64,000 nucleotides of DNA, taken from the IMG/VR virus record IMGVR_UViG_3300025759_000064, positions 46,920 through 110,919 of that record; one strand, written 5' to 3'. Shown here in pieces: positions 1,669-32,125 of the stretch. The DNA is from a virus. How positions within the stretch are numbered: position 1 is the first letter of the stretch; each line of letters begins with the position of its first letter. Below the pieces are notes generated by a model that saw nothing but the letters and a program-made list of their open reading frames with translations, did no database searches and was not told where the DNA came from. The translations under genes and the position numbers were made by a program.

Positions 1669-1750
1669 TGTCCGAATATTCTAATGTCTTGTATATACAT
1701 AAAGAATAATATGTACTATTGTATAGATAGACAATCGGAATCATCGGACA
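1669..1750. repeat. Dispersed dyad element, copy A
   Basis: An AT-rich, imperfect inverted repeat. The left side has TGTCCGAATATTC and GTATATACAT; the right side has ATGTACTATTGTATAGATAG followed by ACAATCGGAATCATCGGACA. The right half (1711-1748) aligns over about 38 bases with 48021-48058, with few mismatches. It lies upstream of the leftward gene that starts at 1620. It may be an operator, a promoter for a virus-specific factor or a recombination site; the sequence alone does not decide. Confidence 0.6.
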
Positions 1751-2217
1751 GGCCATATACCTTCAGGTGCATATTTTTGCCACATAGATTGAGCCTCAGG
1801 TGATTGGTCATTATCAGGGGTTAATGTTTGGTCATAATTAGATAACACTTCTGCCATAGTATCATAGAGATTTTTAGCATATCCTCTTTGTCGATAAGGT
1901 TGTTCTGTTCTCGCATTCATAACACTGGTAGTGTTTCTATCGCCTAAAGTTCTAGCATTCATTCTATTCCTATCACTAATATTCCCAGCGATATTTAATC
2001 TAGGTCGTGTTCTTTTCAAAGGTTTACCAAAATAAGTTCCACCGTTTTCTCGCCTTCTAACATCTATGTCTGTTTGTAATATTTCATTAGTAACAGGGTC
2101 TTGAAAATCAGCAGCCCACGTATCGTGTTCGCCTGATGGTTCAGATGTTACTCTTCTTAATGAATCGGGAATCATAGGCGCTTTGAGCACAATCCACGCT
2201 TGGTCGAAGGCGGTCAT
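1741..2217 (-). CDS. Tagged GNAT-like acetyltransferase-like protein
   Basis: 158 residues. It opens with MTAFDQAWIVLKAP, the short tag shared by many unrelated proteins in this window. The middle has YRQRGYAKNLYDTM (about 107-120), which looks like the acetyl-CoA-binding motif A of GNAT acetyltransferases (R/Q-x-x-G-x-G/A and a following helix). Two other tagged genes (9358-9729 and 9726-10259) carry the same type of motif. The substrate is unknown. The start codon overlaps the stop of the upstream gene (ATGA). The tag is certain; the GNAT assignment is tentative because the rest of the fold is too diverged to judge by eye. Confidence 0.6.
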   Translation of the reverse strand: MTAFDQAWIVLKAPMIPDSLRRVTSEPSGEHDTWAADFQDPVTNEILQTDIDVRRRENGGTYFGKPLKRTRPRLNIAGNISDRNRMNARTLGDRNTTSVMNARTEQPYRQRGYAKNLYDTMAEVLSNYDQTLTPDNDQSPEAQSMWQKYAPEGIWPVR

Positions 2218-2432
2218 TGATTATCACTCCACCAAGTATCTACTTCAGGGTCATTCATCAAATCTTCATTAAAATAATAGAAATGCTTCTTGTAACAATC
2301 ATCACATAACATTCTTGGAAAATCAACGCCATCATCAAGTGTATGATTCTGACTGTTTAACAAAGCACCACAATGTGAACAAGCGCCCACTTCTAATTTT
2401 AGCAAAGCCCACGCTTGGTCGAAGGGGTTCAT
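2214..2432 (-). CDS. Tagged zinc-ribbon protein
   Basis: 72 residues from the ATG at 2432, chosen because it overlaps the upstream stop (TGATG) and restores the tag MNPFDQAWALLK. After the tag comes CSHCG, then CDDC about 28 residues later, which together make a likely Zn2+ site. The tail is acidic with WW. A longer version starting at a non-ATG codon upstream is possible but would put four residues before the tag. The function is unknown. Confidence 0.65.
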   Translation of the reverse strand: MNPFDQAWALLKLEVGACSHCGALLNSQNHTLDDGVDFPRMLCDDCYKKHFYYFNEDLMNDPEVDTWWSDNQ

Positions 2433-2791
2433 CAGCAGTTCCACCGTTTGAGCGCTGCGCCCTTCGGTGTTAGTTTTCCACCTTTACTGGTCGGTCCTTT
2501 GCTCCCACCCATTCTAGCACAGAATGACTTTCTTCTGTTTGCCGCTTTACTACCGGGTTTTAGTGAACTTGGTTTTTTAGTAACAGGTCTTTTCAAGTTT
2601 GCACCTGTCTCTCGCTTGAACTTTGCACGCCCTTTTGCATTTAGACCACCACTTCTGCTATGCCTGTTTGGATTGTAACCGTGAAATGGTTTTGATTTCT
2701 TTTTTGCTTTTTCAAACACAGAATCTAACAGTGCTACTGATGCTTGTTGCATAGGTGTGCAACAGTCACATGTGTCAAATCCCATAGTCAC
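2432..2791 (-). CDS. Small Lys/Arg-rich phage-type protein
   Basis: 119 residues, strongly basic. After a Cys-rich start (CDCC) comes GGLNAKGRAKFKRETGANLK, then KAANRRKSFCARMGG, SKGPTSKGG and a C-terminal ALKRWNC. This block is familiar from small basic proteins of many tailed phages and large viruses (from memory, DUF6321). The function is unknown; nucleic-acid binding or a virion component would fit the charge. The start is GTG 2791 (GTGA overlap with the upstream stop) or ATG 2785. Confidence 0.65.
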   Translation of the reverse strand: MTMGFDTCDCCTPMQQASVALLDSVFEKAKKKSKPFHGYNPNRHSRSGGLNAKGRAKFKRETGANLKRPVTKKPSSLKPGSKAANRRKSFCARMGGSKGPTSKGGKLTPKGAALKRWNC

Positions 2792-3096
2792 CGTAACACA
2801 CCCACCATCTTAACAATTGTTGGCTTTCCGCCCACACCTTGCTTTTTTGCACGTTTTCTTTTTGTTGCTGCTTGCTTCTGACCTGATGACATAGAACCTG
2901 ATGTTTTTGGCGTTTTGCTTGAAACCTTGATTGATGGTCTGCATTTAGGATAACCTTTACTAGATTTATTTGCTTTACTTCTACCACACGGAGGATGCTT
3001 ACCATCTTTAGTACGCGACACATCTACCCATTTTTCTTTGAACCAGCGATTTAGGTTCTTAACTACAAGAGTATCATGGCAAGTACATCGTGTCAT
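2788..3096 (-). CDS. Basic Cys-containing viral protein (DUF5872-like)
   Basis: 102 residues. The N-terminus has CTCHD. The segment LNRWFKEKWVDVSRTKDGKH followed by PPCGR is characteristic of a small viral/phage family that I recall as DUF5872. The tail is Lys/Ser-rich. It overlaps both neighbours by 4 nt and belongs to a run of four small Cys/Lys-rich genes. The function is unknown; position suggests a virion-associated role. Confidence 0.6.
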   Translation of the reverse strand: MTRCTCHDTLVVKNLNRWFKEKWVDVSRTKDGKHPPCGRSKANKSSKGYPKCRPSIKVSSKTPKTSGSMSSGQKQAATKRKRAKKQGVGGKPTIVKMVGVLR

Positions 3097-3254
3097 ACTA
3101 CTCCTACCATTTTCTTAATACTCTTTTGTTTATCCATCAATGCGTAACAAGGACATTTAGGAGCGGATGCTGAACATTGATTACCCTCAATCATACAAAC
3201 GCAAGGCGTTTTACTAGTAGCCCCGCAACAACATTTGTCTTTCTTAAGTTTCAT
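3093..3254 (-). CDS. Cys-rich mini-protein
   Basis: 53 residues (MKLKKDKCCCGATSKTPCVC...), with nine cysteines in the first 41 residues and a basic C-terminus. ATGA overlaps on both sides tie it to its neighbours, which is the main evidence that it is real. The cysteines could bind zinc or form disulphides. No family was recognised. Confidence 0.6.
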   Translation of the reverse strand: MKLKKDKCCCGATSKTPCVCMIEGNQCSASAPKCPCYALMDKQKSIKKMVGVV

Positions 3255-3421
3255 TTTTTCTTTTTCCCCTTAAACTTACCACGACAATATTGAACAGCCC
3301 ACCCGTTTGCATACGCAGATGGGTAAACATCGAACTTTTTCTTTGCGGCTGCTTTTCCAGCAGGGCATAGTTTTTTCCAAACCGCATCCATACCAACACA
3401 ATGACCGCATTCGCAACTCAT
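3251..3421 (-). CDS. Small basic protein, YPSAYAN family
   Basis: 56 residues. CECGHC occurs near the start and CPAGK in the middle. The second half, KKFDVYPSAYANGWAVQYCR, matches a motif repeatedly seen in small phage and giant-virus proteins; it ends KGKFKGKKKK-like. The start (ATG 3421) and stop overlap both neighbours by 4 nt. The function is unknown; DNA or capsid binding is suggested only by charge. Confidence 0.6.
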   Translation of the reverse strand: MSCECGHCVGMDAVWKKLCPAGKAAAKKKFDVYPSAYANGWAVQYCRGKFKGKKKK

Positions 3422-4983
3422 TTTTTCACCTTAACCCTGCGAAGTGTACCTTTATTTTTGAAATGCCTTGCTCTATTTGAGTGTGCACTCTCTAAAGTTA
3501 ATTTTCCACCTTGCGTGTGGCTGACATCTTTACCACCTTTTCCGTATATGCCCCGCTTCCTACGCTCTGTGTTTAATTGCTCACGATACTTTACACGCTT
3601 AGGTGTCTTTTGATATTGCTTGTCATACTCTAATTTGTGAGCAAATGCTGCTGGCGACTTGCGCTCTTTGAGCAACTGATAGGCTATGTCCATTGGTTCG
3701 CTGGCTAGTTTCCGATTTTTCCACTCAAAACGGGTAGTATATTCAGGATGGTCTTCGGGAAGCAACGACATTGGAGGACGTTCTTTACTTGGCTCAAGCC
3801 GTCTATATTCATTTTCAAAATGTCGTCTGTTCTCCCTTTTTTGTTTTTCATAATACCTATTGAACTCCTTTATTGAATCCCAATAGTCTTGTTCATTATA
3901 ATCTTTTATATTTCCATATCCGTATAATCTTTCAGAGCCTTCATCTCGCTCGTATGGTTGGATATTGCTGAAATAATCATATAACATATTTTCATCCATA
4001 TCTTCGTCTTCCTGAATATTTTTAAGCAACTGGAGGGCTATGTCCATTGGACTACCTTTAGTCAATTCGTAGATTTCATCTTTAGTTTTACCATAAAATA
4101 AATTATGTAACTCATCTGCATCCATATCTTCTATCTTTTTTCGTTTAATCGGCTTACCCCAAGGTAAAGGTTTGTCGCTCCATCTACTAATTCGGCCACT
4201 TGGCCTTCTGTCTGTATTACTAATATTACGACCTAAATTGGGAGTGCCCATCTCTAGTGTTTCGTCTTTATAATGTCGTCGCAATGGTACTTCAACTAAA
4301 CTTTCACGTGGAATATTTTCATCATGCTCAATAAACGCTTCTGCTAAATCTTCTTTTGCTTCGTCACTATCTCTTCTGTGCACTTTTCCGTATTTATCAA
4401 GATTTCCACGTACATAAACTAACTTATCGGGGGCATTATGGGTGTATAAATTATTAATATCTCCCATTGTATTATTTGAAACCCAAGTTCCAGCCTTTGC
4501 ATTTTTTAATCCAGCGAAAAGTTTTCGCGCGCGGGGATGATACTTACCATCTCTATGCGCACCTGCCATATAATACGGTACATTTGATATAGGGTCTTTC
4601 CTCCATCTCGAATTAGGGTCTTCCCAAACAGGGTCATTATCATGGGGTATTTCAGGAATCAGTGGTGGAAGTCTTGGGTCACCTTCTTCATAGTTTATAT
4701 TAGAGCCATCTTGCGGTACAGGTTCTCCCGCAGGTCTATGCGCCCCTTGTACACGAACAGCCCTAACGGGGTCCCATCCTTCCCAACCAGTTGTGTAATC
4801 TAATCTAGGGTCATGCATTGGCAACTTTGTTTGATAATTATTTTCAATTGTGTACTCCGGGTGATTTGGAAACAATTGCGCTCTTCTCGCTTGTTCCATC
4901 ATATCCATATATTCTTTCGATTCTTTAATAGCCTCTTCATCTTCTAACGATTTTAGAAAAGCCCAAGATTTGTTAAACACCAT
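3418..4983 (-). CDS. Large tagged protein with internal tag copies
   Basis: 521 residues from the ATG at 4983, chosen because it follows the previous stop by one base and gives the tag MVFNKSWAFLK. Two further tag-like segments occur inside: SPMDIALQLLK and EPMDIAYQLLK. The charged middle contains many D/E/R/Y and PxxxP turns. The C-terminus (KRVKYREQLNTERRKRGIYG, then GKGGKDVSH and SNRARHF) is a compact basic module that looks conserved. The internal tags may separate domains, as in a polyprotein or multi-docking protein. The function is unknown. It sits among tagged genes and small basic virion-type genes. Confidence 0.65.
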   Translation of the reverse strand: MVFNKSWAFLKSLEDEEAIKESKEYMDMMEQARRAQLFPNHPEYTIENNYQTKLPMHDPRLDYTTGWEGWDPVRAVRVQGAHRPAGEPVPQDGSNINYEEGDPRLPPLIPEIPHDNDPVWEDPNSRWRKDPISNVPYYMAGAHRDGKYHPRARKLFAGLKNAKAGTWVSNNTMGDINNLYTHNAPDKLVYVRGNLDKYGKVHRRDSDEAKEDLAEAFIEHDENIPRESLVEVPLRRHYKDETLEMGTPNLGRNISNTDRRPSGRISRWSDKPLPWGKPIKRKKIEDMDADELHNLFYGKTKDEIYELTKGSPMDIALQLLKNIQEDEDMDENMLYDYFSNIQPYERDEGSERLYGYGNIKDYNEQDYWDSIKEFNRYYEKQKRENRRHFENEYRRLEPSKERPPMSLLPEDHPEYTTRFEWKNRKLASEPMDIAYQLLKERKSPAAFAHKLEYDKQYQKTPKRVKYREQLNTERRKRGIYGKGGKDVSHTQGGKLTLESAHSNRARHFKNKGTLRRVKVKK

Positions 4984-4984
4984 T

Positions 4985-5203
4985 CTAAATCCATCCTGAT
5001 GTCCTCTTTGATTGTTGTGTCTTAGGTTGTGACGTAGGTTGAGGCGGATTGGCTTGCATATTTCTTTTAGCATCTGCGTTTTTAGCCATTATCATGTCTT
5101 GTAGAGACATAAAGCGACCTGAGCCGGGAGGATATTCGTGCATATCAATGGGGTCTGCTTTGAGAAATTGCCAAGCCTCATTGAATGCGGTCAACCCAAT
5201 CAC
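4985..5203 (-). CDS. Short tagged protein
   Basis: 72 residues, starting at GTG 5203 (GTGA overlap with the upstream stop). A TTG at 5194 would give the more typical start LTAFNEAWQFLKADP. After the tag there is a Pro/Gln/Asn-rich, probably disordered tail (NPPQPTSQPKTQQ). The tag is almost the only ordered part, which suggests that it is itself the functional element. The function is unknown. Confidence 0.6.
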   Translation of the reverse strand: MIGLTAFNEAWQFLKADPIDMHEYPPGSGRFMSLQDMIMAKNADAKRNMQANPPQPTSQPKTQQSKRTSGWI

Positions 5204-6336
5204 CTATTTGCAAAAACATCTTTTGGCATACGAGGTCTTGGTTTGTTAGGGTCTGCAAATCGTGGGTCACCCGGTCTAGGCGCACCACGTGGTTTTCGCA
5301 TTTCAGGCATACCTTCCGCCATTATTGCAGCCCGTTCCGCTTCATTCATTTCCGCTTGGCGTGCATCTTCATCACCAAACTCAGGTTTACCGTATGGCGG
5401 TCCTAAATCTTCCCCATCATATTCAGGAAAACCTTCATCATCGTATCTACTTGGACCGGGCATACTATCTCTAGTGTAATTATTCGCCCCTTTTCTATGT
5501 AAATCTTCGTCTATAAAACGTTGAGGAGACATATCAGGAAGATTTCGTGCTCTGACGTGTTCGGGTAAATTAGATATTCTAAAGTTTTGCTTCAACATTT
5601 CAAATGCTTTTTGCATAGGTTTACCCCTGCCGGGGATTCGATGTAGCATTTTTGAATTGATAAGTTCTTGTAATTTTGCCTCACTTGCTGCTCTTTTACC
5701 AAGTTTAGTGTTTTTTAACGCTTCTTGCAAAAATGGGGCATAATCATCCTTAAAATCCCGCACCTCTTTATTAGTTGGGTGTGTTTGTTGGTATGAGTAA
5801 GATTGTGGTGCTTTGGTTCTTCTTTGGTTATCTTTGTTAGCATAAGCATTCATTTGGTCCATAGGGTCATCTACACTTCCATATGGCATACTATCGGCGT
5901 AGTACTCAGGGTGCATATCTAACGTTGGGGTTTTACCATCACGGTAATCTAATGCACTTTCATTTGCACGAAGATTCAGATTTGGCAAGTCTGCATTTTC
6001 GTCATTATAACTACCTGATGTCAAATGGGGGTTTTCTTTCATGCGCCTCTGCATCATCCCATATATCGCAGGGTGTATAGTACCCGCACCCTCTTGCCTC
6101 TCTCCGACATCAGGGCCTTCTCCTTGGTAAGTGATTTCTGCTAGATTGGCTCTGTCATAAGCAGGTTCAAACATTTGATGCTCAGGTAGCGCTTTCAAGG
6201 TCTGCCACGATTTCTTCATAGGCATAGAGCCGTATTTCTTCATGTTCGGTGTAGCGGCATCGGTGGGCTTAGTTTTCATTTTTGGCCCAATGCTGATAAT
6301 TACAGCAACGCCCTTTTTCTTTTTCTTGTCTTTCAT
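5200..6336 (-). CDS. Long tagged protein, disordered
   Basis: About 378 residues from the ATG at 6336 (AAGTGAT upstream); GTG 6345 is an alternative. The N-terminus is Lys-rich with a short hydrophobic stretch (GVAVIISIG), followed by the tag variant MKKSWQTLKALPEHQMF. A second tag-like helix, KPMQKAFEMLKQNF, lies at about residue 240. The rest is rich in D, P, Y, N and G, typical of disorder. It ends PRPRMPKDVFANR. The gene lies in the run of tagged genes. The function is unknown. Confidence 0.6.
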   Translation of the reverse strand: MKDKKKKKGVAVIISIGPKMKTKPTDAATPNMKKYGSMPMKKSWQTLKALPEHQMFEPAYDRANLAEITYQGEGPDVGERQEGAGTIHPAIYGMMQRRMKENPHLTSGSYNDENADLPNLNLRANESALDYRDGKTPTLDMHPEYYADSMPYGSVDDPMDQMNAYANKDNQRRTKAPQSYSYQQTHPTNKEVRDFKDDYAPFLQEALKNTKLGKRAASEAKLQELINSKMLHRIPGRGKPMQKAFEMLKQNFRISNLPEHVRARNLPDMSPQRFIDEDLHRKGANNYTRDSMPGPSRYDDEGFPEYDGEDLGPPYGKPEFGDEDARQAEMNEAERAAIMAEGMPEMRKPRGAPRPGDPRFADPNKPRPRMPKDVFANR

Positions 6337-6347
6337 TTTAATCACTT

Positions 6348-6695
6348 TTAATTTTGATATTGTGGATTATTTTGCTGGTACGGTGGCCTTTCATGCTCAA
6401 ATGGGTTTCTTTTAGCCTCAAATGGTTTGGGTTGATGAGGTTGGTAAGGGTTGTAAGGTAGGTTGTTATCATTTGGATTACCTTGTCCGTATGGCGCATT
6501 TTGCTTCATTCTCTCCATGTACTCGTCCAAAGTTCGCTGTTTACCTTCTTTTGATGGAGAGGGGGCGTAAGGGTTAGGTTGAGGATTATTTCGGTAAGGT
6601 TGGTTAGATGGATTGGAAGGCATTGCTCGGTGGTATAAATAATTCGGGTTAGGTGCGCTTTTCAAAAACGTCCACGCTGTTTCAAATGCTGTCAT
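6348..6695 (-). CDS. Short tagged Pro/Asn/Gln-rich protein
   Basis: 115 residues: the tag MTAFETAWTFLKSAP followed by a low-complexity tail (NPNPYAPSPSKEGKQ, PYNPYQPHQPKPF, YQQNNPQYQN). The start overlaps the upstream stop (ATGA). It is another case in which the tag is followed by what looks like a disordered segment. No family was recognised. Confidence 0.6.
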   Translation of the reverse strand: MTAFETAWTFLKSAPNPNYLYHRAMPSNPSNQPYRNNPQPNPYAPSPSKEGKQRTLDEYMERMKQNAPYGQGNPNDNNLPYNPYQPHQPKPFEAKRNPFEHERPPYQQNNPQYQN

Positions 6696-6955
6696 TCTCC
6701 TTGACCCCCTCTAAATGACTCAAACCATTCGGGATGGTTCTGTCTGTAAAAATCAATTATTTTAGCATCTTCTTCGTGGTCATCTATTTTTTCACGTAAT
6801 TTTGAAGCCTTTTGCTTCTTTTTACGGCTATCAGACCTTGTTTTACCAGTTTGATTCAGTGCCTCTTCCATGTAACTTGGCATATCGTGCTGCATAGCAA
6901 CTTGAGAGGAGGGGGACATTTTTAGCACATTTATTGCTGCATCTATTGGATTCAT
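6692..6955 (-). CDS. Short tagged charged protein
   Basis: 87 residues from the ATG at 6955, with GGTGA upstream. The tag variant is MNPIDAAINVLKMSP, with Ile and Ala replacing Phe and Trp. A charged helix (SRKKKQKASKLREKIDDHEE) and a C-terminal WFESF follow. It is the first gene of the leftward run that begins at the divergent gap 6956-7136. The function is unknown. Confidence 0.6.
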   Translation of the reverse strand: MNPIDAAINVLKMSPSSQVAMQHDMPSYMEEALNQTGKTRSDSRKKKQKASKLREKIDDHEEDAKIIDFYRQNHPEWFESFRGGQGE

Positions 6956-7136
6956 TTTATTCACCTTTTACGCATCGGCGTGGTAACTACGTGCACCGCT
7001 AGTAATGCGATATGTCTAATATGTTACGCTCTATCCTGAGGGCGTGGTGGCTTCCATTCCGCAGGGTCAAGTTGTTGTAAGTTCTTCTTCTTTCCACATT
7101 CATTACCTCAAAAAAAATAAGCAGACTGGTGGGAAT
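6956..7136. promoter_or_regulatory. Divergent intergenic region
   Basis: A 181-base non-coding gap between a leftward gene (start 6955) and a rightward cassette (start 7137). It should hold promoters for both. An A-rich stretch at 7111-7120 precedes the rightward gene, but no copy of the 24-bp TATA element of the rightward arm is present. The left part is GC-richer and contains TAATGCG-like words reminiscent of the repeats at 10.3-10.8 kb. Confidence 0.45.
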
Positions 7137-7760
7137 ATGGAAGTCACCGCACCTGTTTTGGTTACTAAAGGCGTAGGAGAAACAGCGCTAAACTTGGGCG
7201 CTCTTGCACTTGCACCATTTACTGGTGGTATGTCGGCAGTTGCCTTAGGAGCAGCAAGAGGCGCACAGGCATTGAGAGCGGTAAAAGCAGCAAAAGGTGC
7301 AAAAACTGCCGTAGGAACTACTCAAGCCGCTAAAACTACTGCTGGTAAAGTTGCAGTTAAAGACCCAATGGCTATGGCAAACGCAAGACATGCAGAGCAA
7401 ATAGCAGAGGCTGGTGAAAGCGGAGGTAGATTAGGTCAATTGCGAAGTAGAGCAGTAACACCAACGGCGGCAGAAGAATTAGAGGCTGCAACTTCAAATC
7501 AAGCAAGAATGAAAGATATAGCAAGCACTACTGATGCAGCAGCAGAAGCGGAAAAAAATCTTGCCGAATTACATGAGCAACAAAAAACTGCAACAGATAC
7601 AGCAGGGGCTGCTGCTGTTGTGGGAGTACAAGGCACAAACGCTGCCGCACAACAAAAACAGGCACAACAAAAAGCCGAAATGGAAAGAATAGAAGGATTA
7701 GCGGAAGATGCTAGGTCAAAAGCCAGCACCGGAACTGGTGGGAAGGTAGCGGTGGCATGA
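7137..7760 (+). CDS. Ala-rich protein with hydrophobic N-terminus
   Basis: 207 residues from the ATG at 7137 (GGTGGG upstream, 5-base spacing). Residues about 8-50 are small and hydrophobic (GETALNLGALALAPFTGGMS), then come Ala/Lys repeats (RAVKAAKGAKTA) and a long Ala/Glu/Gln helix (about 115-195). This is like membrane-interacting or virion internal proteins, but no family was recognised. It is one of only two rightward genes within the leftward arm and overlaps the next by 4 nt. Confidence 0.6.
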   Translation: MEVTAPVLVTKGVGETALNLGALALAPFTGGMSAVALGAARGAQALRAVKAAKGAKTAVGTTQAAKTTAGKVAVKDPMAMANARHAEQIAEAGESGGRLGQLRSRAVTPTAAEELEAATSNQARMKDIASTTDAAAEAEKNLAELHEQQKTATDTAGAAAVVGVQGTNAAAQQKQAQQKAEMERIEGLAEDARSKASTGTGGKVAVA

Positions 7761-7870
7761 TTGCCATGGCTCTAAAAGGCTACATTAAACTGCAATTAGC
7801 CCAAATGATACAGCATTTGATTGTCGGCTTAGGACTTGTAGTTGTAGTTACTGTTATACTTTTATCTTAG
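7757..7870 (+). CDS. Single-span membrane mini-protein
   Basis: 37 residues (MIAMALKGYIKLQLAQ...) with one strong hydrophobic span (about 20-36, LIVGLGLVVVVTVILLS) that runs to the C-terminus. The start overlaps the upstream stop (ATGA), which supports translation. Its last 17 bases overlap the 3' end of the convergent HMG-CoA-lyase-like gene. With the Ala-rich gene before it, this may be a small membrane module such as a holin-type or virion membrane pair; that is inference. Confidence 0.55.
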   Translation: MIAMALKGYIKLQLAQMIQHLIVGLGLVVVVTVILLS

Positions 7871-8702
7871 TATTTACAAACTTGACTAGCGGTTCTAAGT
7901 CTTTAAGCGTAACACCACAATCAAGATTCTCTCTATCAGCCCAGTGTACTAACTGTTCTGTGGCTAAATTGCCCCCTGAGCCGGGTACAAACGGGCAACC
8001 GCCCATTCCTCCAATGCTAGAATCGAACTGTGTGATGCCGCAATCGAAGCCAGCAGACAGATTATCGTACATTCTGCCCTCTCTTACACCGTGATGTAGG
8101 TGCAATGCGATATTTGCATCTATCTTTCTGTCAGTTAAACGCATTACTTTGCGTATCATCGATGGGTTAGCATTACCTATGGTGTCAGACAAAACTATTG
8201 TATCGCCTAAGGTATTTGCCCATTCCATGGTTTTTAGCATGTCTTTTGGCGGTATTTCGCCCATAATCGGGCATCCAAAAGATGTAGAAAGGTAAACTCT
8301 GACGTTTTTGGTCGGTATTCTGTCTAATGCGCCACTGTATTCAGCAAAAATTGTGTTTAGGTTTTTACCTAAGTTATTGACATTGAAGTAGTTTGACGGT
8401 GAGAAAAAAATATTATATTTTTCTACACCAACAGACTTTGCCCTTTCAACACCCACACGGTTTGGCACTAACATACCCAAGTTGTGCGTAGAGGCTAAAT
8501 CTTGCACTTTGAGGAATACTACTTCGCTATCAGCCATATTTGGAACTCTGTCAGGATTGACCATTGAGCCAATTTCAATATTTTTGATACCCGTATTTGC
8601 AATTTTACGTATCAAAGTCACCTTATCGTGCGTAGATGTGATTGTATCTGCGCTCTGCAACCCATCGCGTGGTCCTACTTCGTAGATTGAAAAGTCGCTC
8701 AT
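7854..8702 (-). CDS. HMG-CoA lyase-like enzyme (HMGL TIM barrel)
   Basis: 282 residues from the ATG at 8702 (TAATG overlap with the upstream stop). The family hallmarks are clear: EVGPRDGLQ at residues 8-16 (metal and catalytic Arg12/Asp13), SFGCPIMG at 141-148, HLHHG at 201-205 (metal ligands), and GGMGGCPFVPGSGGN at 231-245 with Cys236, the mobile-loop cysteine of HMG-CoA lyases. Cellular HMG-CoA lyase splits HMG-CoA into acetyl-CoA and acetoacetate in leucine breakdown. All key residues are present, so it is probably active, but related HMGL enzymes use other acyl-CoA or aldol substrates. In a viral genome it would be an auxiliary metabolic gene. It lies between tagged genes. Confidence 0.85.
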   Translation of the reverse strand: MSDFSIYEVGPRDGLQSADTITSTHDKVTLIRKIANTGIKNIEIGSMVNPDRVPNMADSEVVFLKVQDLASTHNLGMLVPNRVGVERAKSVGVEKYNIFFSPSNYFNVNNLGKNLNTIFAEYSGALDRIPTKNVRVYLSTSFGCPIMGEIPPKDMLKTMEWANTLGDTIVLSDTIGNANPSMIRKVMRLTDRKIDANIALHLHHGVREGRMYDNLSAGFDCGITQFDSSIGGMGGCPFVPGSGGNLATEQLVHWADRENLDCGVTLKDLEPLVKFVNTKIKV

Positions 8703-9361
8703 TATTCTGTCTCCCAATCCCACATATCGGGTCTTTCAGTTTCACCAACACCCCCACCGTAAGCCAAATCTTTAATGTCTCTCGGCACATTGCCCCAAGT
8801 AGATTCATCATGCCAATTCATTGGCTGCCCTACGTTTTTACCCTGTCTCATCATAACTAATCGGTGCGGGTCAATCGCCTCATGGATAAGCCCTTCAGGA
8901 AATCCTTCAGGACTTTGTTTTGCGTTCCTCCACTGCGCATCGAGATTTTTCGCGCCCTCAGGTGTCATACGAATCCCAACCATTGAATGTCCCATTCCTT
9001 TTCCACTAGGCGTAGCACCAGCGTATGCGGGTGTAACATTACGAAAATCGGGTTTAGTCACCCAAAATCCTTTACCCCCACCACGTGTAGTATCAAACTT
9101 TTTGTCATTTTTACCAGCCATTACATCTTCCCATTGCGAATTATCTTCTCCATAACCACGGTTTGCGTTTTGCGGCAAAGGCTGCAAACCTCGATTATCA
9201 ATATCTTGCATATATTCGCTCGGTACAACACGCATCATCGACATCGGCCCAGCCCGACTAGGAAAATCTGCATGGTATTGACCCAAGGTAGTTTGGTCAG
9301 GGTGCAATTCAGGATACAAAGGTGACTTTAGAACAGCCCATGCTTGGTCAAAGGGGTTCAT
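8702..9361 (-). CDS. Tagged protein, possible ADP-ribosyltransferase-like fold
   Basis: 219 residues from the ATG at 9361 (ATGA overlap), giving the tag MNPFDQAWAVLKSP. Further on, the pattern IDNRGLQPLP, KGFWVTKPDFRN, TPAYAG, MVGIRMTPEG and LIHEAIDPHRLVMM has the rhythm of ADP-ribosyltransferase/KptA-like proteins (a loop, paired strands, then a strand with I-D-P-x-x-L). I cannot identify the catalytic triad with certainty, so this is weak. It is another unrelated domain placed behind the same tag. Confidence 0.55.
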   Translation of the reverse strand: MNPFDQAWAVLKSPLYPELHPDQTTLGQYHADFPSRAGPMSMMRVVPSEYMQDIDNRGLQPLPQNANRGYGEDNSQWEDVMAGKNDKKFDTTRGGGKGFWVTKPDFRNVTPAYAGATPSGKGMGHSMVGIRMTPEGAKNLDAQWRNAKQSPEGFPEGLIHEAIDPHRLVMMRQGKNVGQPMNWHDESTWGNVPRDIKDLAYGGGVGETERPDMWDWETE

Positions 9362-9729
9362 TGTTGACCCTCCCGATTCGCCCAAAAACCCTCAGCATCC
9401 TCGCTCTGCATGTGATTAGTGTTCTGCACAGTAAGTCCAGTAATTTTCTCAGCGTGGTTGTACATGTCCGTGGCTATACCCCCTCTCCGAAAACTCGGAT
9501 GCGTGTAACTAGCCAAAGGAATCAAGTTACCGTCAGCCACTGAAAACTTTGCATAACCATATTTTATGGGCTTTTGGTCGTATTTATCCAAACCCTGTAT
9601 GGCCGCAACCTGTAAATTACCATGTTTATCGTATTCATGCTGCAACGAGAAATCTTCGGGGTCTCCGTAGTAAGGGAAATCCGGTTTAGGCATTTTGAGT
9701 ACAGCCCACGCTCGGTCGAAGGCAGTCAT
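9358..9729 (-). CDS. Tagged GNAT-like acetyltransferase-like protein
   Basis: 123 residues. The tag is MTAFDRAWAVLKMP. The C-terminal half has ASYTHPSFRRGGIATDMYNH, matching GNAT motif A (a strand, then R-x-x-G-I-A-x-x-M), followed by a strand and FWANREG, a typical end for this fold. It is short for a GNAT (usually about 150). It overlaps both neighbours by 4 nt. The target is unknown. Confidence 0.6.
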   Translation of the reverse strand: MTAFDRAWAVLKMPKPDFPYYGDPEDFSLQHEYDKHGNLQVAAIQGLDKYDQKPIKYGYAKFSVADGNLIPLASYTHPSFRRGGIATDMYNHAEKITGLTVQNTNHMQSEDAEGFWANREGQQ

Positions 9730-10259
9730 TCATGCACCCCATCATACGGCCAACGTAGTCTTATCCCTCTATAATCATCTTGAAACTTAGTGTGAGCAGA
9801 ACGCCTCTCATCTCCCTCATACGGCAATTCCATGTGTTTTGCCCAAAATGGGGCTGAGGATGCGCTTAACTGACTCGGAAATGTCGTTAGCCTAGCATTT
9901 TTCTTCTTCGCCATCTCATTCGCCAAATTATAAACACCCGTCATCAAACCTCTTCTTCTGTAACCCTCTCTAGTTTTTGCATGAGAAGTTTTCCATTCAG
10001 GGCCATAATGCTCGCTAATATGATTAACAGCAAGCGGTTTTCCATCATTATCCATAATTCTTGTATTTAGCCCATACATATCATATTCCGACACCATTGG
10101 ATAGATTTTGTTTGTTTGAGGGTCTTGAAATTGTGCTTCCATCCCACCGTCTTGTACGTCAGCCTCCTTAATGGGGTCCCACCCTTCTATTTCTTTAATT
10201 GAGCCGGGGATTATCGGCATCTTGAGTATAGCCCACGCAATGTCGAATGCGTTTACCAT
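9726..10259 (-). CDS. Tagged GNAT-like acetyltransferase-like protein
   Basis: 177 residues from the ATG at 10259; GTG 10268 is possible but would put extra residues before the tag (MVNAFDIAWAILKMP). The motif REGYRRRGLMTGVYNLANEM at about 110-130 matches the acetyl-CoA-binding loop and helix of GNAT enzymes, and SASSAPFWAKHMEL follows as expected for motif B. It is the first gene of the leftward arm, adjacent to the candidate origin. It could acetylate host or virion proteins; this is inference. Confidence 0.6.
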   Translation of the reverse strand: MVNAFDIAWAILKMPIIPGSIKEIEGWDPIKEADVQDGGMEAQFQDPQTNKIYPMVSEYDMYGLNTRIMDNDGKPLAVNHISEHYGPEWKTSHAKTREGYRRRGLMTGVYNLANEMAKKKNARLTTFPSQLSASSAPFWAKHMELPYEGDERRSAHTKFQDDYRGIRLRWPYDGVHE

Positions 10260-15058: not shown

Positions 15059-17751
15059 TTGATACAACTAGATTTATACCGAGCAACGAAGATATGCACA
15101 AACTAATCAAAGCCTTTGCGTCAGTTCACGTAGAGAATGAGAAAGATGACATCGGGCCTAACAGACCTGACGCACCATTCTTTGAGAGAGTAGCACGCAT
15201 GGATAGTATTGATGAAGAAGATTACATCGAGATGGCTGATAGATTCTATAAATACATTAACACACAACTACCAACTATTCAACACATCGCTGGCTACCCA
15301 CCTGAAACAGATTGGTCTCAAGCACTTATTGTATTGAAAGAGAAAGGTGAGAAGGCTAGGGCTGCTAGACTAGAACGTGAAAAGATACTTGCACAATTTG
15401 AAAGAGATAGAGGAGATATACGCCGTTTGTTTATGGATGCGGTGAAGAAGTTACAATGTGAATCAAGCATTAATGCTTTTAATGTATCTTTTGTTAGAGT
15501 ATTACCTGAAACAAACATGATTAGTTTTGCTACGCAGTTGGAGGAAATAGGTATGACATCAGCCGAGGCTCTAGCCGAAGTTGCTACATGGATGCGTAAG
15601 TATGCACAGATGATAGTCTCCAATAATCAGTCAAAAATAGTCCAAATTGAGGAATATGAAGAGGTTTGGTACAGCAGAAACGACCCTCACCAACGTTATC
15701 CGCGTAAAAGTAAGAGGTTAGCATTGGATTGGGGTACACGTGACTCAGACCTGTATAGGACTCTAAAGAACAAGATACCCTTCCCCTCATTCAAATGGGA
15801 TGGGGAGAAAATGTCAGTAGCACTTGATGTTATGGTGATTAATACTGCTGTTAAAATACTACAAGAAATGGGCTATTTTACCCATGTAATAGAAGTTTTT
15901 GCATCAAAACTTGAAGCAAGTCAACCCACACCTACTAACAGTAGTGGTTATAGTGCCACCTTAAAATCAGATGCTATAATACTCAAAGTTCCATTCGATG
16001 ATACTAATTCAAGGGCTGTAATTAAAAATGTAAATGGTAGGAAATGGTTAGCAGACATCAAAGCATGGTCTGTTCCTCTATCGGAAGCAAATGTGTTGAT
16101 TAAAAAACTAGGTGAGAAAGATGTGTTTGGTGAACAATCAAGTCAGAAACAGAAACTACTCGCTGAGGTAAATAAGATAGAAGAAGTCAAAACATACCTC
16201 ATGGGTAAGGCTGAGAGAATAGCAATCAGTGATGCTACCGCTTTACATGACGATGATTTAGTCAAGGACATGAAAGACAGACTAGCAGCAATGTTTCCCG
16301 CAGGTCGCGAGTTATATCCTTTCCAATACGCTGGTGTTAGGTTTGCTGAGTTAGCAGATGGGAGATGTCTCATTGGTGATGACATGGGTGTAGGTAAGAC
16401 CATCCAAGCAATTGCATACTCAGCCTTACATCAGGAACATTGGCCTGTAATTGTGGTATGCCCTGCTAATCTAAAGTATAATTGGGGCAGAGAAATTAGC
16501 ACTTGGCTACCTAACTCAACTGTTCAAGTGGTAAAGAATGGGAAGGTGGATTTAGAAGGCTGTGACTTTACCGTTATCAACTACGACTTAGCAACTAGAC
16601 AGAAGGATAACTTAGATGCTTTAGGTGCTAATCTAATCATCTTCGATGAATCACATTACTTGAAGAATAGTAAAGCCAAGAGAACTATTGCTTGTGTATC
16701 CGTAGCAGAGAATGCTAACTCAGTTATATGTCTCAGTGGTACACCGATTACTAACAGACCAATTGAACTATTCACTACGCTTGAGATGATTAAACCTGCT
16801 GAATACAAGGGCAACTTCTTCCCTTATGCTAAAAGATATTGTAATGCTCATAACAATGGTTGGGGTTGGGACTTCAACGGTTCATCCAATGTTGAAGAGT
16901 TGCATGAGAAACTAAGAGATATTATGATACGCAGAATGAAGAACGATGTGCTTGAAGAGTTGCCTGATAAGATTAGACAGTTCATTCCAATAGTACCTAG
17001 TACAAAGTATCTAGCAGATTATAGAAGGCTTGCTAGACAATGGCTCAGTGAGTATGACTACTACAAGACAGCAGGTGGTATGCCAGCAGGGTTTGTATTG
17101 AATATGCTTACTGCACTTAGACATGCTGCTGGGCAAATGAAAGTACCTGCTGCTGCTGATTGGATAGCAGAGTACCACGACCAAAACCCTGACAAACCTA
17201 TCATAGTATTCCACCATCACAAAGATGTAGGAGAAGAATTGATTAAACTATTACGCACTGATAAAAGATTCAGTGGTAGGAGATGGAGTACAATCAACGG
17301 TAGTACCCCTGCTGAAAAGAGAGATGCTAGAGTTCAGGCTTTCCAAGCAGGTGAATTAAGTGGGCTTATCTGTTCAACGATTGCTGCTAAAGAAGGATTG
17401 ACTCTTACAGAAGCAGACACAGTAGTGTTCATAGAAAGAGAATGGGTATCAGGTTGGGAAGAACAAGCAGAAGATAGAGTCAATCGTATAGGACAAGATG
17501 CTGATACAGTACACGCAGTATATCTATCAGTTGTTGGTACTATTGATGAGAAGTTTGATAGAATCGTAGAAGATAAGAGAGAGGTTGTAAGTGCAATCTT
17601 AGATGGTACTACACATGAAGAAGGTACTAAGTCAGGGGTAGCAAAAGCATTACTGCAAGCAATGGTTGATGCGGGAGACATACCAGCAGGTATGATGAAA
17701 GACATAGGTGTTGCTAAACCTAAGTCACACACAGGAGAGGAAGAAGAATGA
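15055..17751 (+). CDS. SNF2-family DNA-dependent ATPase
   Basis: 898 residues. The C-terminal half is a full SNF2/SF2 motor: motif I GDDMGVGKT (Lys448), motif II DESH at 531-534, motif III LSGTP, and motif VI AEDRVNRIGQ at about 805-814. The N-terminal 400 residues are not recognisable by eye. The last domain resembles SMARCAL1/RadD-type enzymes that anneal or remodel DNA forks. Likely substrates are replication or recombination intermediates of viral DNA, or host DNA-bound proteins. It is the last gene of the ArdC operon and ends with EEE. Confidence 0.85.
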   Translation: MIDTTRFIPSNEDMHKLIKAFASVHVENEKDDIGPNRPDAPFFERVARMDSIDEEDYIEMADRFYKYINTQLPTIQHIAGYPPETDWSQALIVLKEKGEKARAARLEREKILAQFERDRGDIRRLFMDAVKKLQCESSINAFNVSFVRVLPETNMISFATQLEEIGMTSAEALAEVATWMRKYAQMIVSNNQSKIVQIEEYEEVWYSRNDPHQRYPRKSKRLALDWGTRDSDLYRTLKNKIPFPSFKWDGEKMSVALDVMVINTAVKILQEMGYFTHVIEVFASKLEASQPTPTNSSGYSATLKSDAIILKVPFDDTNSRAVIKNVNGRKWLADIKAWSVPLSEANVLIKKLGEKDVFGEQSSQKQKLLAEVNKIEEVKTYLMGKAERIAISDATALHDDDLVKDMKDRLAAMFPAGRELYPFQYAGVRFAELADGRCLIGDDMGVGKTIQAIAYSALHQEHWPVIVVCPANLKYNWGREISTWLPNSTVQVVKNGKVDLEGCDFTVINYDLATRQKDNLDALGANLIIFDESHYLKNSKAKRTIACVSVAENANSVICLSGTPITNRPIELFTTLEMIKPAEYKGNFFPYAKRYCNAHNNGWGWDFNGSSNVEELHEKLRDIMIRRMKNDVLEELPDKIRQFIPIVPSTKYLADYRRLARQWLSEYDYYKTAGGMPAGFVLNMLTALRHAAGQMKVPAAADWIAEYHDQNPDKPIIVFHHHKDVGEELIKLLRTDKRFSGRRWSTINGSTPAEKRDARVQAFQAGELSGLICSTIAAKEGLTLTEADTVVFIEREWVSGWEEQAEDRVNRIGQDADTVHAVYLSVVGTIDEKFDRIVEDKREVVSAILDGTTHEEGTKSGVAKALLQAMVDAGDIPAGMMKDIGVAKPKSHTGEEEE

Positions 17752-17754
17752 ACC

Positions 17755-17778
17755 TTGGCTATATAAACCGAGATTGAA
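17755..17778 (+). promoter_or_regulatory. 24-bp TATA element, copy 4
   Basis: Variant with G instead of A before the CTATATAAA block (TTGGCTATATAAACCGAG). It serves the operon beginning at 17795. A nine-codon frame (MNLGYINRD) from 17749 ends inside it. Confidence 0.8.
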
Positions 17779-17794
17779 TTAAGTGGTGATTAAG

Positions 17795-18067
17795 ATGTTG
17801 TTTGATTGTGAGTTTTGTAATGAAAAAGGAATGGAATTAAGTCTAGGGACATACTTAGCACCCTCAGTATTCTATGGTGGTGAGCCTAAGGAAACAGACA
17901 TTATCGTAATGAAATGTATTGAGTGTGGTGTGCATGAGCCTTGTGATGATGATGATTTAATAGGCTTCATCATGCAGATATTAGGTGAGACTAACTACCA
18001 AAAAGCGATGATAAAAACACTACAAATATTGTGGAAAGAAACATACATGAAGGAGATGATTGAATGA
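17795..18067 (+). CDS. Zinc-ribbon-like small protein
   Basis: 90 residues from the ATG at 17795 (GGTGAT upstream); GTG 17783 is less likely. CEFC at 5-8 and CIEC in the middle form a likely zinc site. An acidic CDDDDL and a helical C-terminus follow. The function is unknown. Confidence 0.6.
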   Translation: MLFDCEFCNEKGMELSLGTYLAPSVFYGGEPKETDIIVMKCIECGVHEPCDDDDLIGFIMQILGETNYQKAMIKTLQILWKETYMKEMIE

Positions 18068-18336
18068 AGATAGACTTAAGCGAAACAAAACCTGTGTATG
18101 AAATACACATTTGGTATGAAATATCAGAGTGTAAAACCTGCGACCATATGTCGTTAGGTGAGTTTGATGACTTTGAAAAGTTCGACAATAAAGATGAGGC
18201 GATAGAAGCGTATAACAAATTAGATTGTGCATACAAAATACTCATGGAATATGCTGGTGATGATGGTGATTGGTTAATGCAATGTGCACCCAAAAGGCGG
18301 AACATGCTACAAGATAGTGGAGGTGATGATGAATGA
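18064..18336 (+). CDS. Hypothetical acidic protein
   Basis: 90 residues, with CKTC near residue 24 and a late C; DDFEKFDNKDEAIEAYNKL looks like a small alpha/beta domain of the kind often seen in phage accessory proteins. ATGA overlaps on both sides. No family was recognised. Confidence 0.55.
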   Translation: MKIDLSETKPVYEIHIWYEISECKTCDHMSLGEFDDFEKFDNKDEAIEAYNKLDCAYKILMEYAGDDGDWLMQCAPKRRNMLQDSGGDDE

Positions 18337-18539
18337 TTGACACAGACATGGCTGAACAAATACTGCAAGGTGATGACACACACCCTGACATCCCATGTCA
18401 TAACAGCAGGTTACAGGCGTTGGGACTAGAGATGCTCGCAGAAGTCAAGCGGTTGCGATACCACCTTGACTTGATGATAGAAAAGTTCGGTGAAGCATAC
18501 CTTATTGAAACATTGATTGAAAGAGGTGAAGAAGAATGA
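18333..18539 (+). CDS. MIDTD paralogue 1
   Basis: 68 residues. It is the first of five proteins beginning MIDTD. It has LAEVKRLRYHLDLM in the middle, the same E-V-K-R-L segment as its neighbours, probably a short coiled coil. The E-V-K-R-L word recalls the phage Ea22-like accessory proteins. It ends GEEE from the next ribosome site. The function is unknown. Confidence 0.6.
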   Translation: MIDTDMAEQILQGDDTHPDIPCHNSRLQALGLEMLAEVKRLRYHLDLMIEKFGEAYLIETLIERGEEE

Positions 18540-18835
18540 TTGACACAGACACAATTGAAAAATACATACTTGGTGGTGAATGGGAGAACCAATACCCACA
18601 AGTAATAGAATATCTGCTCGCAGAAGTCAAGAGGTTGAAAAAAGAACTAGCGTTTTACACAGACAACTGCACTGTTGTGTGGATGCTCGATGATGTCTTG
18701 TCCGTTGATAACACATTGTCAGATGAACAAGCATCGTGGGTTCTTGAAAGAATGGAACACAAGCACGACGCTTGCTTAGGTATCAGTTGGGACACGATTG
18801 AGTTTTGGATTAGCGAGGTGAAGAAGAATGATTGA
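18536..18835 (+). CDS. MIDTD paralogue 2
   Basis: 99 residues: MIDTDTIEKYILGG, then LLAEVKRLKKELAFY (coiled coil), then a C-terminal domain with WVLERMEHKH. It overlaps the next gene by 8 nt in a different frame, so the usual Glu tail is lost and the protein ends VKKND. The function is unknown. Confidence 0.6.
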   Translation: MIDTDTIEKYILGGEWENQYPQVIEYLLAEVKRLKKELAFYTDNCTVVWMLDDVLSVDNTLSDEQASWVLERMEHKHDACLGISWDTIEFWISEVKKND

Positions 18836-19277
18836 CACAGACAAATACGAAGGACATACAGTAAATCGTAGGGATAAATTGGGAACTTTTGCTGGTACTG
18901 ATATATATGTATGGACTTACTTTGCTCAAGAACTTCCGAGTTGGACGAGTAAAGCGGATTTCCTATTGGTAGAAGACGCACCACTTCTCCTAGCAGAATA
19001 CAAAAAACTACGTCAGTTTGCTAGGCTTAGTAATTACAGTTTTTCTGAATCATTACCTGAATTGATGCAAGCACTTGTAGATGAGCGAGCAGAAGTCAAG
19101 CGGTTGCGTGAAGAACTTGACGAGGTTTATCAAGAGAGAGATAAATACGAAGGTGCTTTGAACATAGCACTTGAACACTTAGGCTATCAAGGTGCAGACC
19201 ACGAATGGTTTTGCAGAGAGAAGTATCAATGCAATGTGTATGGTGATGAACTACTAACAAAGGAGGAAGAAGAATGA
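18828..19277 (+). CDS. MIDTD paralogue 3
   Basis: 149 residues, the longest of the set. MIDTDKYEGHT is followed by a strand-rich part (DIYVWTYFAQELPSW), DAPLLLAEYKKLRQF, then RAEVKRLREELDEVYQERDK, a clear coiled coil. The first EVKRL-like segment follows a D-A-P-x-L-L motif as in Ea22-like phage proteins. It ends KEEEE. Confidence 0.6.
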   Translation: MIDTDKYEGHTVNRRDKLGTFAGTDIYVWTYFAQELPSWTSKADFLLVEDAPLLLAEYKKLRQFARLSNYSFSESLPELMQALVDERAEVKRLREELDEVYQERDKYEGALNIALEHLGYQGADHEWFCREKYQCNVYGDELLTKEEEE

Positions 19278-19609
19278 TTGACACAGACAAATACGAAAAA
19301 CATACACCTATGTGGTATTTAGATGGTGACTCAGATGGATGGTGGATTCTATCTGACTTCACTACACATAATGATTGCGTAGTAGCGGAAGTGCGGTCAG
19401 AAAACGAAGCCGATGCACAACTCATGGCAGACGCACCTGACTTACTCATAGAAGTCAAGCGGTTGCGTCGTCTATGTAATACATTATTCACCTATGCACA
19501 TAGCATTGAAACCGGACAATCCACCATCGAGAAATCCAATGGAGAGCCTCTAAGCACAATAGATTTTGAGAAAGATATGACTTGGGTGAATTGGGGTGAA
19601 GAAGAATGA
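19274..19609 (+). CDS. MIDTD paralogue 4
   Basis: 111 residues: MIDTDKYEKHTPMWYL, a strand-rich part, then LMADAPDLLIEVKRLRRL, the best match to the A-D-A-P-x-L-L-x-E-V-x-R-L-R block common in phage accessory proteins. It shares its first eight residues with paralogue 3, as a duplication would produce. Confidence 0.6.
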   Translation: MIDTDKYEKHTPMWYLDGDSDGWWILSDFTTHNDCVVAEVRSENEADAQLMADAPDLLIEVKRLRRLCNTLFTYAHSIETGQSTIEKSNGEPLSTIDFEKDMTWVNWGEEE

Positions 19610-19716
19610 ATCTAGTTAATGTAATACCTGCTGTATTAGTATTTGGGATATTTATTACTTTGATAGGTCACCTGTTATTTGAATCATTCATATACTCTCG
19701 CACCCGTATGAATTGA
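19606..19716 (+). CDS. Single-span membrane mini-protein
   Basis: 36 residues with a hydrophobic span at about 4-27 (VNVIPAVLVFGIFITLIGHL). ATGA overlap with the previous gene. A further 17-codon frame from 19716 runs into TATA element 5. The function is unknown. Confidence 0.5.
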   Translation: MNLVNVIPAVLVFGIFITLIGHLLFESFIYSRTRMN

Positions 19717-19757
19717 TGATAGTCGTTGTTTGCGATTATATGAGAGTGATTAGAACA

Positions 19758-19781
19758 TTGACTATATAAACCGAGATTGAA
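19758..19781 (+). promoter_or_regulatory. 24-bp TATA element, copy 5
   Basis: Perfect copy with the core CTATATAAACCGAGATTG. It serves the operon 19798-21321. Confidence 0.85.
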
Positions 19782-19797
19782 TGAAAGAGTGGTAACT

Positions 19798-19986
19798 ATG
19801 ACAAATAAGAATTGGATTAACTTTGCTAGATACAGTTCCCCACCAATAGGTAAGGGTAGGATGTATCAGTGTGAACTGAATGAACAAGAGGGTGAATTGA
19901 TATTGAGTATAGACCTTGATGGGACTAGATTTGAAGGTAAACTATACGATATAAGTATGATATTAACGAAGGAGGAAGAAGAATGA
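19798..19986 (+). CDS. Small hypothetical protein
   Basis: 62 residues from the ATG at 19798 (GAGTGG upstream). A short strand-rich protein (MYQCELNEQEGELILSIDL) that looks like a small beta barrel or sheet. It ends TKEEEE. No family was recognised. Confidence 0.55.
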   Translation: MTNKNWINFARYSSPPIGKGRMYQCELNEQEGELILSIDLDGTRFEGKLYDISMILTKEEEE

Positions 19987-20261
19987 GTTACGGATATGAA
20001 CCTAGTCCTAAACCTACATGGTGGAAGGGACTAACTGAGAAAGAGCAGATAGAGTGGTATAATGGTTACATTAAAGCACTAAAGGATGTAATTACTTACG
20101 GTAATAGTAACATAAACGGTGACCTTGAAGATGCGAGGCGAGAGTTATTTTTACTAACAGGAAAATACGAAAGAAACACCGATAAAGAACCCACAATGTT
20201 AGATGTGATTATGAAAATGAGTAGTAACATTGTGAGATATGAAAAGGGGGAAGAAGAATGA
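19983..20261 (+). CDS. Small hypothetical helical protein
   Basis: 92 residues, starting with ATGA overlap; WWKGLTEKEQIEWYNGYIKA suggests helices. It ends GEEE. No family was recognised. Confidence 0.55.
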   Translation: MSYGYEPSPKPTWWKGLTEKEQIEWYNGYIKALKDVITYGNSNINGDLEDARRELFLLTGKYERNTDKEPTMLDVIMKMSSNIVRYEKGEEE

Positions 20262-28551: not shown

Positions 28552-28804
28552 AGTCGCATTAAGTCCTAAGTTATTATCAGACATAGCAGATACAAACACA
28601 GCAAAGATAGGTGGTAGAAAGTTTACATTTTCGTGGGGTGATGCAACAGTTTTGATGTGGGCTAAGGGTACAACTATACCTTGTCCCCTATGTAAGAAAG
28701 AGTGTAGTAGTTGTCTTGTATTAAAGACAGATATAGGTGATGTTTACGCTTGTATTCACTGTGAAAAGTACATTATGTATAGCGATAAAATGGAGGAAGA
28801 ATAA
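28529..28804 (+). CDS. Zinc-ribbon protein
   Basis: Up to 91 residues. CPLC-KKEC and CIHC in the C-terminal half make a treble-clef or ribbon zinc site. The start is uncertain: TTG 28529 lies too close to AGAGGAG, and TTG 28538 fits better. It overlaps the end of the previous gene. It ends MEEE, although no gene starts there, so here the GGAGGAAGAATAA end is a relic or serves the RNA region that follows. Confidence 0.55.
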   Translation: MWKLLPNEVALSPKLLSDIADTNTAKIGGRKFTFSWGDATVLMWAKGTTIPCPLCKKECSSCLVLKTDIGDVYACIHCEKYIMYSDKMEEE

Positions 28805-29021
28805 GAATACGATTACAAGTTGGCGAGGCTACATGAATAGGTGGTAGCCCAAAACCGTAACCAGTATGCACAGAACGGGATAAAGAACCGGAGGAGAAGG
28901 GTCGGAGAGAGATTAGATTGCAACGCCCAAACTGTTCTGATAAATGAAATAGAGCATTAAGAAGTCGGATAAGCCAACATATCGTAAACTATTACTGAAT
29001 CAAAACAAGGAGAAAGAAAAA
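28805..29021 (+). ncRNA. Candidate structured RNA
   Basis: A 217-base gap with no ORF in an arm where genes otherwise overlap. Nested complementary blocks are present: TACGAT 28808-28813 with ATCGTA 28981-28986, and directly inside GTTGGC 28819-28824 with GCCAAC 28973-28978. Within these lie a hairpin GGCTAC 28827-28832/GTAGCC 28844-28849 and a stem CAGAAC 28871-28876/GTTCTG 28934-28939, the latter enclosing CCG/CGG. Together they give a multi-branched fold of about 180 nt. It does not match RNase P, SRP, tRNA or C/D-box RNA by eye. It could be a stand-alone RNA or a leader of the gene at 29022 (GGAG at 29010-29013). Confidence 0.5.
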
Positions 29022-31798: not shown

Positions 31799-31810
31799 AC
31801 CGAGATTGAA
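31787..31810 (+). promoter_or_regulatory. 24-bp TATA element, copy 8
   Basis: Perfect copy, overlapping the end of the previous gene. It serves the operon 31827-34903. Confidence 0.85.
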
Positions 31811-31826
31811 AGAAGGGGAGAGAAAG

Positions 31827-32120: not shown

Positions 32121-32125
32121 TTACA

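Follow-up and report, generated by a model that had tools for sequence, protein, structure and literature searches.

The window analysed here, a 64,000-nucleotide stretch of viral DNA, comprises bases 46,920-110,919 of the 110,919-base (110.9 kb) IMG/VR virus record IMGVR_UViG_3300025759_000064. Ten leftward genes, which form one block at positions 1741-10259, open with the sequence M-x-[AP]-F-D-x-A-W-x-[LVI]-L-K or a clear variant of it, hereafter called the tag. All ten were re-read, and the claim of the first-pass annotation that ten genes between 1.7 and 10.3 kb share an N-terminal tag was borne out: the start tags are clear in seven genes (2217, 2432, 5194, 6695, 9361, 9729 and 10259) and weaker in three (6955, MNPIDAAINVLK; 4983, MVFNKSWAFLK; 6219, MPMKKSWQTLK). 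The tag is a short amphipathic helix that is separable from the protein bodies behind it and limited to this group of viruses. The features concerned are the following.

9726-10259, minus strand: tagged GNAT-fold acetyltransferase-like gene, tag MVNAFDIAWAILK at 10221-10259; based on an AlphaFold model and PDB fold matches.
9358-9729, minus strand: tagged GNAT-like gene, tag MTAFDRAWAVLK at 9694-9729; the Pfam matches to Acetyltransf_7/_1 are weak (E 0.005, below the cut-off).
8702-9361, minus strand: tagged gene with a possibly ADP-ribosyltransferase (ART)-like body, tag MNPFDQAWAVLK at 9326-9361; based on sequence aligned with YHGTT proteins.
7854-8723, minus strand: HMG-CoA-lyase-like gene, untagged, within the tagged block; Pfam HMGL-like, E 8e-27.
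6692-6955, minus strand: gene with the variant tag MNPIDAAINVLK at 6920-6955; relatives have AFESAWSVLK in the same place.
6348-6695, minus strand: tagged gene with a Pro/Asn-rich body, probably disordered judging by composition, tag MTAFETAWTFLK at 6660-6695.
5200-6345, minus strand: long protein with the variant tag PMKKSWQTLK (core 6193-6219) and an internal MQKAFEMLK (5590-5616), related to FDIAWSVLKALPEQQ proteins.
4985-5194, minus strand: small tagged gene with a TTG start, tag MTAFNEAWQFLK at 5159-5194; relatives in six other contigs.
3418-4983, minus strand: 521-residue multi-tag protein with MVFNKSWAFLK at 4951-4983 and internal tags at 4021-4047 and 3667-3693; a phrog_6437 cassette comes after the last tag.
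2432-2791, minus strand: basic DUF6321 protein, no clear tag; Pfam DUF6321, E 1e-16.
2214-2432, minus strand: small Cys-rich (zinc-ribbon-like) tagged protein, tag MNPFDQAWALLK at 2397-2432; judged from its sequence, no match in a Pfam search.
1741-2217, minus strand: tagged GNAT-like gene, tag MTAFDQAWIVLK at 2182-2217; based on alignment with the GNAT family.
34235-34903, plus strand: gene with the tag-like start MTIHDAWALLKEE on the replication strand, status uncertain; no family in Pfam.

Two gene starts were corrected: the 551-residue open reading frame most likely begins at 4983 (MVFNKSWAFLK) and the 72-residue one at the TTG at 5194. The three variants reported earlier inside two long proteins were recovered as internal copies in two tagged genes (PMDIALQLLK at 4047, PMDIAYQLLK at 3693 and PMQKAFEMLK at 5616), and beyond the window the same genome encodes a 631-residue protein with two more, EPMEIAFQLLK and NPIEIAFQLLK. 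Besides the HMG-CoA lyase and DUF6321 genes, three small Cys-containing, mostly basic genes inside the block are untagged; the DUF6321 body is tagged in other viruses (relatives in L006, L026, L098 and L116). Small basic cassettes of this kind without the tag (2432-2791, 3251-3421 and relatives) often open with CxCC or CGHC, after which comes a helix resembling the tag (GMNGAWDVLEKKL, PMENALALMK); this may be a zinc-knuckle version of the tag. The leftward block is broken up by a rightward open reading frame for an Ala-rich protein of 238 residues (7044-7760).

Two genes further along had also been listed as carriers. The one at 34929/34959 (MWIAFNDAWLSIVEN) was dropped, as it lacks the L-K end. 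The status of 34235 stays uncertain: its relative in G009 retains the motif, whereas its own start lacks F-D, it lies on the replication strand and its relative in G013 has MMDPLAKAWEHLQ.

The tag is far more frequent than expected by chance. In seven genomes 55 N-terminal tags were observed, whereas shuffling the first 30 residues of each gene gave a mean of 0.005 and a maximum of 1. At the DNA level, the pattern for MxxFDxAWxxLK matched at least 118 stretches in IMG/VR compared with 5 for a control in which these codons were swapped, and among 97 genomes or contigs the reversed pattern had no match. The cellular genomes searched (84,980; 257 Gb) gave 37 pattern matches, compared with about 30 estimated by chance, and none of them represents a convincing tagged gene. 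The 48 contigs selected by the tag contain about 115 strict tags, on one strand only in each contig, and the reversed-pattern control gave 0. Stray matches in L018, L023, L066 and L101 and in the 37 cellular contigs were judged to be chance. In the survey that the first-pass annotation had proposed, the tag was confined to viruses of this type, where it recurred on diverse domains.

The genome of the window encodes a family B DNA polymerase, an RFC-like clamp loader (AAA/RFC), a group II chaperonin of the thermosome type (Pfam Cpn60_TCP1, E 9e-120) and the HMG-CoA-lyase-like protein; its sliding-clamp candidate had no match in Pfam. The terminase (TerL), portal, S78 prohead protease (Peptidase_S78, E 2.8e-9; head maturation protease in PHROG) and HK97-type major capsid protein (MCP) are encoded on the strand opposite the replication genes. 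This gene content, together with the opposed structural and replication gene sets, fits the description by the International Committee on Taxonomy of Viruses (ICTV) of Magrovirales, viruses of marine Poseidoniales archaea (PMC10768690), and judged by its genes the window is part of a magrovirus-like genome.

Virtually all real copies of the tag occur in viruses with this MCP and on the strand of the capsid genes. An MCP of the window type was found in 37 of the 48 tag-selected contigs, including all 20 that exceed 80 kb, and always on the tag strand; nine of the remaining 11 contain homologues of magrovirus proteins and two (L018 and L023) are the chance matches mentioned above. When contigs were selected by MCP instead, strict tags occurred in 21 of 48, which is a lower bound, given that E, N and M variants escape the strict pattern and that numerous contigs are incomplete. 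On the MCP strand were 30 of these 31 tags; the sole strict tag opposite it lies at a contig end (G079, the contig of L281, 168-194). Across the seven genomes, 55 of 445 capsid-strand genes are tagged compared with 0 of 444 on the other strand (p 9e-18). A multi-tag protein adjoins the terminase gene.

The bodies behind the tag are unrelated, as had been claimed. BLASTP sorts the 340 distinct tagged proteins into 169 groups, of which 117 have a single member, although the number is approximate, since single linkage merges some unrelated proteins, divergent homologues are split and a few matches are due to chance. In an alignment of tagged proteins (A2) the consensus was confined to the tag, and the tagged proteins are not full-length homologues of one another. 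Few of them match known families: Nudix, HD_4, GP88, DUF6321, HTH_38, TFIIB-type and other zinc ribbons, a weak ASCH match, and the PHROG families ParB and phosphohydrolase. PADLOC gave only two matches among the tagged proteins, both to poorly defined models. For the GNAT gene at 9726-10259 the AlphaFold model reached a pLDDT (predicted local distance difference test) of 76.5, about 90 in the core, and each of the 50 best fold matches in the PDB was a GNAT protein or a complex containing one (E 1e-3 to 1e-2). Similarity to HYE-type ADP-ribosyltransferases was seen for the YHGT family; the matches, to catalytic domains of Tpt1/KptA, DarT1 and exotoxin A, have weak E-values but all belong to one class. 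The ART assignment of the protein at 8702-9361 rests on likeness to other tagged families, because its model did not fold (pLDDT 36) and its profile found no relative in PDB.

Several lines of evidence separate the tag from these bodies. Amino-acid relative entropy drops after Lys12, which delimits a tag of 12 residues, and nucleotide information content, raised at a G-rich stretch before the start codon, is near background directly after the Lys codon. Matches to the Nudix and HD_4 profiles set in at residue 17, ART-like similarity begins at profile position 15 with the first residues after the tag, and phrog_6437 similarity begins two residues past an internal tag. In the GNAT model the tag helix (residues 4-13) is followed by a low-confidence linker and then by the well-modelled domain; judged by these profiles and this model, the tag is not an integral first helix of each fold. 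The amphipathic moment of the tag is 0.48 compared with 0.30 after shuffling. The same body can be tagged at its N-terminus, tagged internally or untagged: the phrog_6437 cassette stands behind internal PMDIAYQLLK in the window, behind N-terminal MTAFDIAWRMLK in L040 and N-terminal PIDPAFQLLK in L063, and is untagged elsewhere, and DUF6321 is preceded by FDEAWSLLK, FEDAWEILK or an unrelated CDCC start. In L053 two full tags lie about 100 residues apart. Because phrog_6437 and DUF6321 occur with or without the tag and domains begin after it, the tag has the appearance of a portable signal.

The tag is probably a sorting or docking signal by which magroviruses package proteins into the virion, the cargo entering the next host cell. 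Reasoning from the genes, we see virion loading indicated by the location on the structural strand, a multi-tag protein near the terminase gene, the absence from the replication strand, the cargo types and the precedents given below. That a short amphipathic helix on many cargoes is what a docking signal would look like, as had been suggested, is the reading best supported by separability and by the diverse bodies. The helix face F4-A7/W8-L11 would bind a common partner inside the forming procapsid; the likeliest candidates are the prohead protease (its scaffold part), the MCP and the portal. The tagged proteins would then enter the next host cell along with the DNA. The acetyltransferase-like, ADP-ribosyltransferase-like, Nudix, HD and small basic proteins may act on the host or condense DNA, and long proteins with two or three tags may be multivalent core proteins or fused cargoes; such delivery and effector roles are speculative. 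New bodies could be joined by recombination because the tag is a DNA-conserved cassette beside the start codon. Only tentatively would we go as far as a universal, exchangeable packaging cassette, recombined onto more than 100 effector and DNA-binding domains and itself duplicated within core proteins, that brings a large, strain-specific arsenal into the virion through one dock and is cut by the S78 protease, with haloarchaeal relatives doing likewise with another prefix.

Several points weigh against virion packaging. The tagged genes were gathered by a fixed regular expression, so that conservation at the six selected tag positions is by construction. The strand association could come from late expression instead of virion location. 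The common docking partner and the loading itself are both inferred, and the aoguangvirids, the ICTV-described magrovirus family, are not cultured (PMC10768690). In the closest cultured relative found, the haloarchaeal virus HVTV-1, no FDxAWxxLK tag was detected in the right half of the genome, the half searched. Cleavage of the tag is also speculative. The S78 protease might cut after L-K as gp21 does on the T4 targeting peptide, with weak hints from sequence: the L-K end is conserved in tagged proteins with a weak preference for Ala, Ser or Asn right after it, and L-K also occurs at the MCP N-terminus (SELLKAD) and at the end of the protease domain (FxILKED), where HVTV-1 has SKAD at both places. 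These MCP and protease sites are conserved among relatives, but because the MCP surroundings are equally conserved and the protease site is the usual end of the S78 domain, the idea is a hint.

Instead of being packaged, tagged late proteins may dock to a non-virion partner in the infected cell and act there; the partner could be an enzyme of the host, the virus's own thermosome or a focus of replication or assembly. This seems unlikely. In its favour, the thermosome is a possible client-binding partner, and one tag-like gene (34235) lies on the replication strand; an intracellular signal, however, should also mark early genes, whereas the tags are distributed 55 to 0 in favour of the capsid-gene strand, and a multi-tag protein is next to the terminase gene.

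As the first-pass annotation had noted, the copies are also similar at the DNA level. With one gene compared per body group, Leu-11 is CTC in 43% of tags compared with 8% in bodies (p ~1e-45), Thr-6 is ACC in 57% compared with 17%, Asp-5 is GAC in 62% compared with 39%, and GCC is avoided at Ala-7. Since the copies have synonymous codons in common, tags appear to have spread as DNA, and many are probably copies of related DNA and not convergent peptides, in line with new bodies having been acquired by recombination at gene starts. These codons and the conserved G-rich stretch before the start codon could also mean that the stretch is mainly a DNA or RNA element (a translation start, a late-expression leader or a recombination hot spot) with the peptide as passenger. 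We regard this as improbable: the peptide reappears deep inside proteins, far from start codons, often with F or Y in place of W; substitutions are conservative, and for Lys and Gln the tag shows the same codon usage as the bodies. The internal copies and the maintained amphipathicity argue for selection on the peptide itself.

A generic N-terminal helix for stability, dimerisation or solubility, with no specific partner, would agree with a short amphipathic tag, but the F-D-x-A-W-x-x-L-K spacing, maintained over 169 groups, one virus type and one strand, exceeds any generic need and makes this explanation improbable as well. Descent of all tagged proteins from one family, as divergent paralogues with the tag as last recognisable remnant, is most improbable. 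The largest BLASTP group, 50 members joined by single linkage, speaks for it, but unrelated folds and domain profiles among the bodies, and the same body with and without the tag, already contradict it.

Packaging signals of this kind have precedents in bacteriophages. The T4 capsid-targeting sequence (CTS) comprises 10 residues on diverse basic internal proteins and on the ADP-ribosyltransferase Alt (PMC9026906), and gp21 removes such short N-terminal targeting peptides from internal proteins (PMC9026906, PMC5694885). Like the CTS of IPI-III and Alt, the tag is a short N-terminal peptide common to diverse, often basic and otherwise unrelated proteins of one virus that encodes a prohead protease; in T4, too, the cargo set is highly variable among related viruses and Alt is an ADP-ribosyltransferase (PMC3012670, PMC9026906). 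The tag differs from the CTS in sequence, archaeal host, a far larger number of body families, tandem internal copies and its purely genomic description. In T4, cleavage sites have Glu as their last residue, and F-D-x-A-W is absent from its CTS. By analogy, the tag may work like a capsid-targeting sequence; homology with T4 or membership of its kind is not claimed. In P1 the first 30 residues of DarB are enough to bring a foreign protein into the capsid (PMC9024508), likewise an N-terminal packaging signal, but one described for a single large protein of a bacteriophage and not for many. Internal head proteins of phiKZ-like giant phages (SPN3US) have N-terminal propeptides that the prohead protease removes and whose presumed role is to direct proteins to the prohead (PMC5694885); most of these exceed 100 residues and have no common 12-residue helix. 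The cargo-loading peptides of encapsulins were rejected as a match, the tag being N-terminal or internal, F-D-x-A-W-x-x-L-K in sequence and found in tailed viruses with terminase and portal. Encapsulin peptides are mostly C-terminal and Gly/Leu-rich and belong to cellular compartments with one or few cargoes. What the tag would have in common with them is the loading of an HK97-fold shell by means of a short peptide, as described for encapsulins (PMC8346489, PMC10960027).

The closest MCPs in an annotated phage collection are those of haloarchaeal viruses, e.g. HVTV-1 (Druskaviridae; 33.6% identity). In HVTV-1 (L311, KC117377) gp115 (16303-20244) and gp116 (20237-20698) have a common prefix of their own, VYVDSPxxAPEGVQVQQG. 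The gp115 protein, annotated as a zeta toxin, contains two internal xDxAxxhLKD repeats followed by the same EWVSDPTEQAPNRWT-type module; the repeats precede a C-terminal domain that by eye appears ART-like. The earlier statement that no described system has this signature stands for the sequence, as the literature searched on N-terminal motifs in such viruses and a magrovirus paper contained no description of the tag, but not for the kind of signal, which is known from T4 and P1.

The Poseidoniales hosts belong to the most abundant archaeal groups of the surface ocean. Should the tag be a packaging signal, sequence alone would mark which unfamiliar proteins reach the host, giving more than 100 candidate effector families; capsid targeting, shown for T4 and P1, would be extended to archaeal viruses and would there be far larger in scale, and a short peptide would become usable for loading HK97-type shells.

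Two further observations concern the structural genes. Between the portal and protease genes lies a gene for a protein of about 1,820 residues (genome positions 27511-32973, L003-L004), one region of which by eye resembles a nucleotidyltransferase or DNA-ligase fold. A second common motif (MSWDEVHNLA, MSWDDIHEMA or MDADELHNLF) is found at the C-termini of the protease (L003, 10086-11465), where it is kept among relatives, and of a small protein (L004, 1472-1819), and also within the 521-residue protein at 3418-4983; it could represent a scaffold-to-shell contact.

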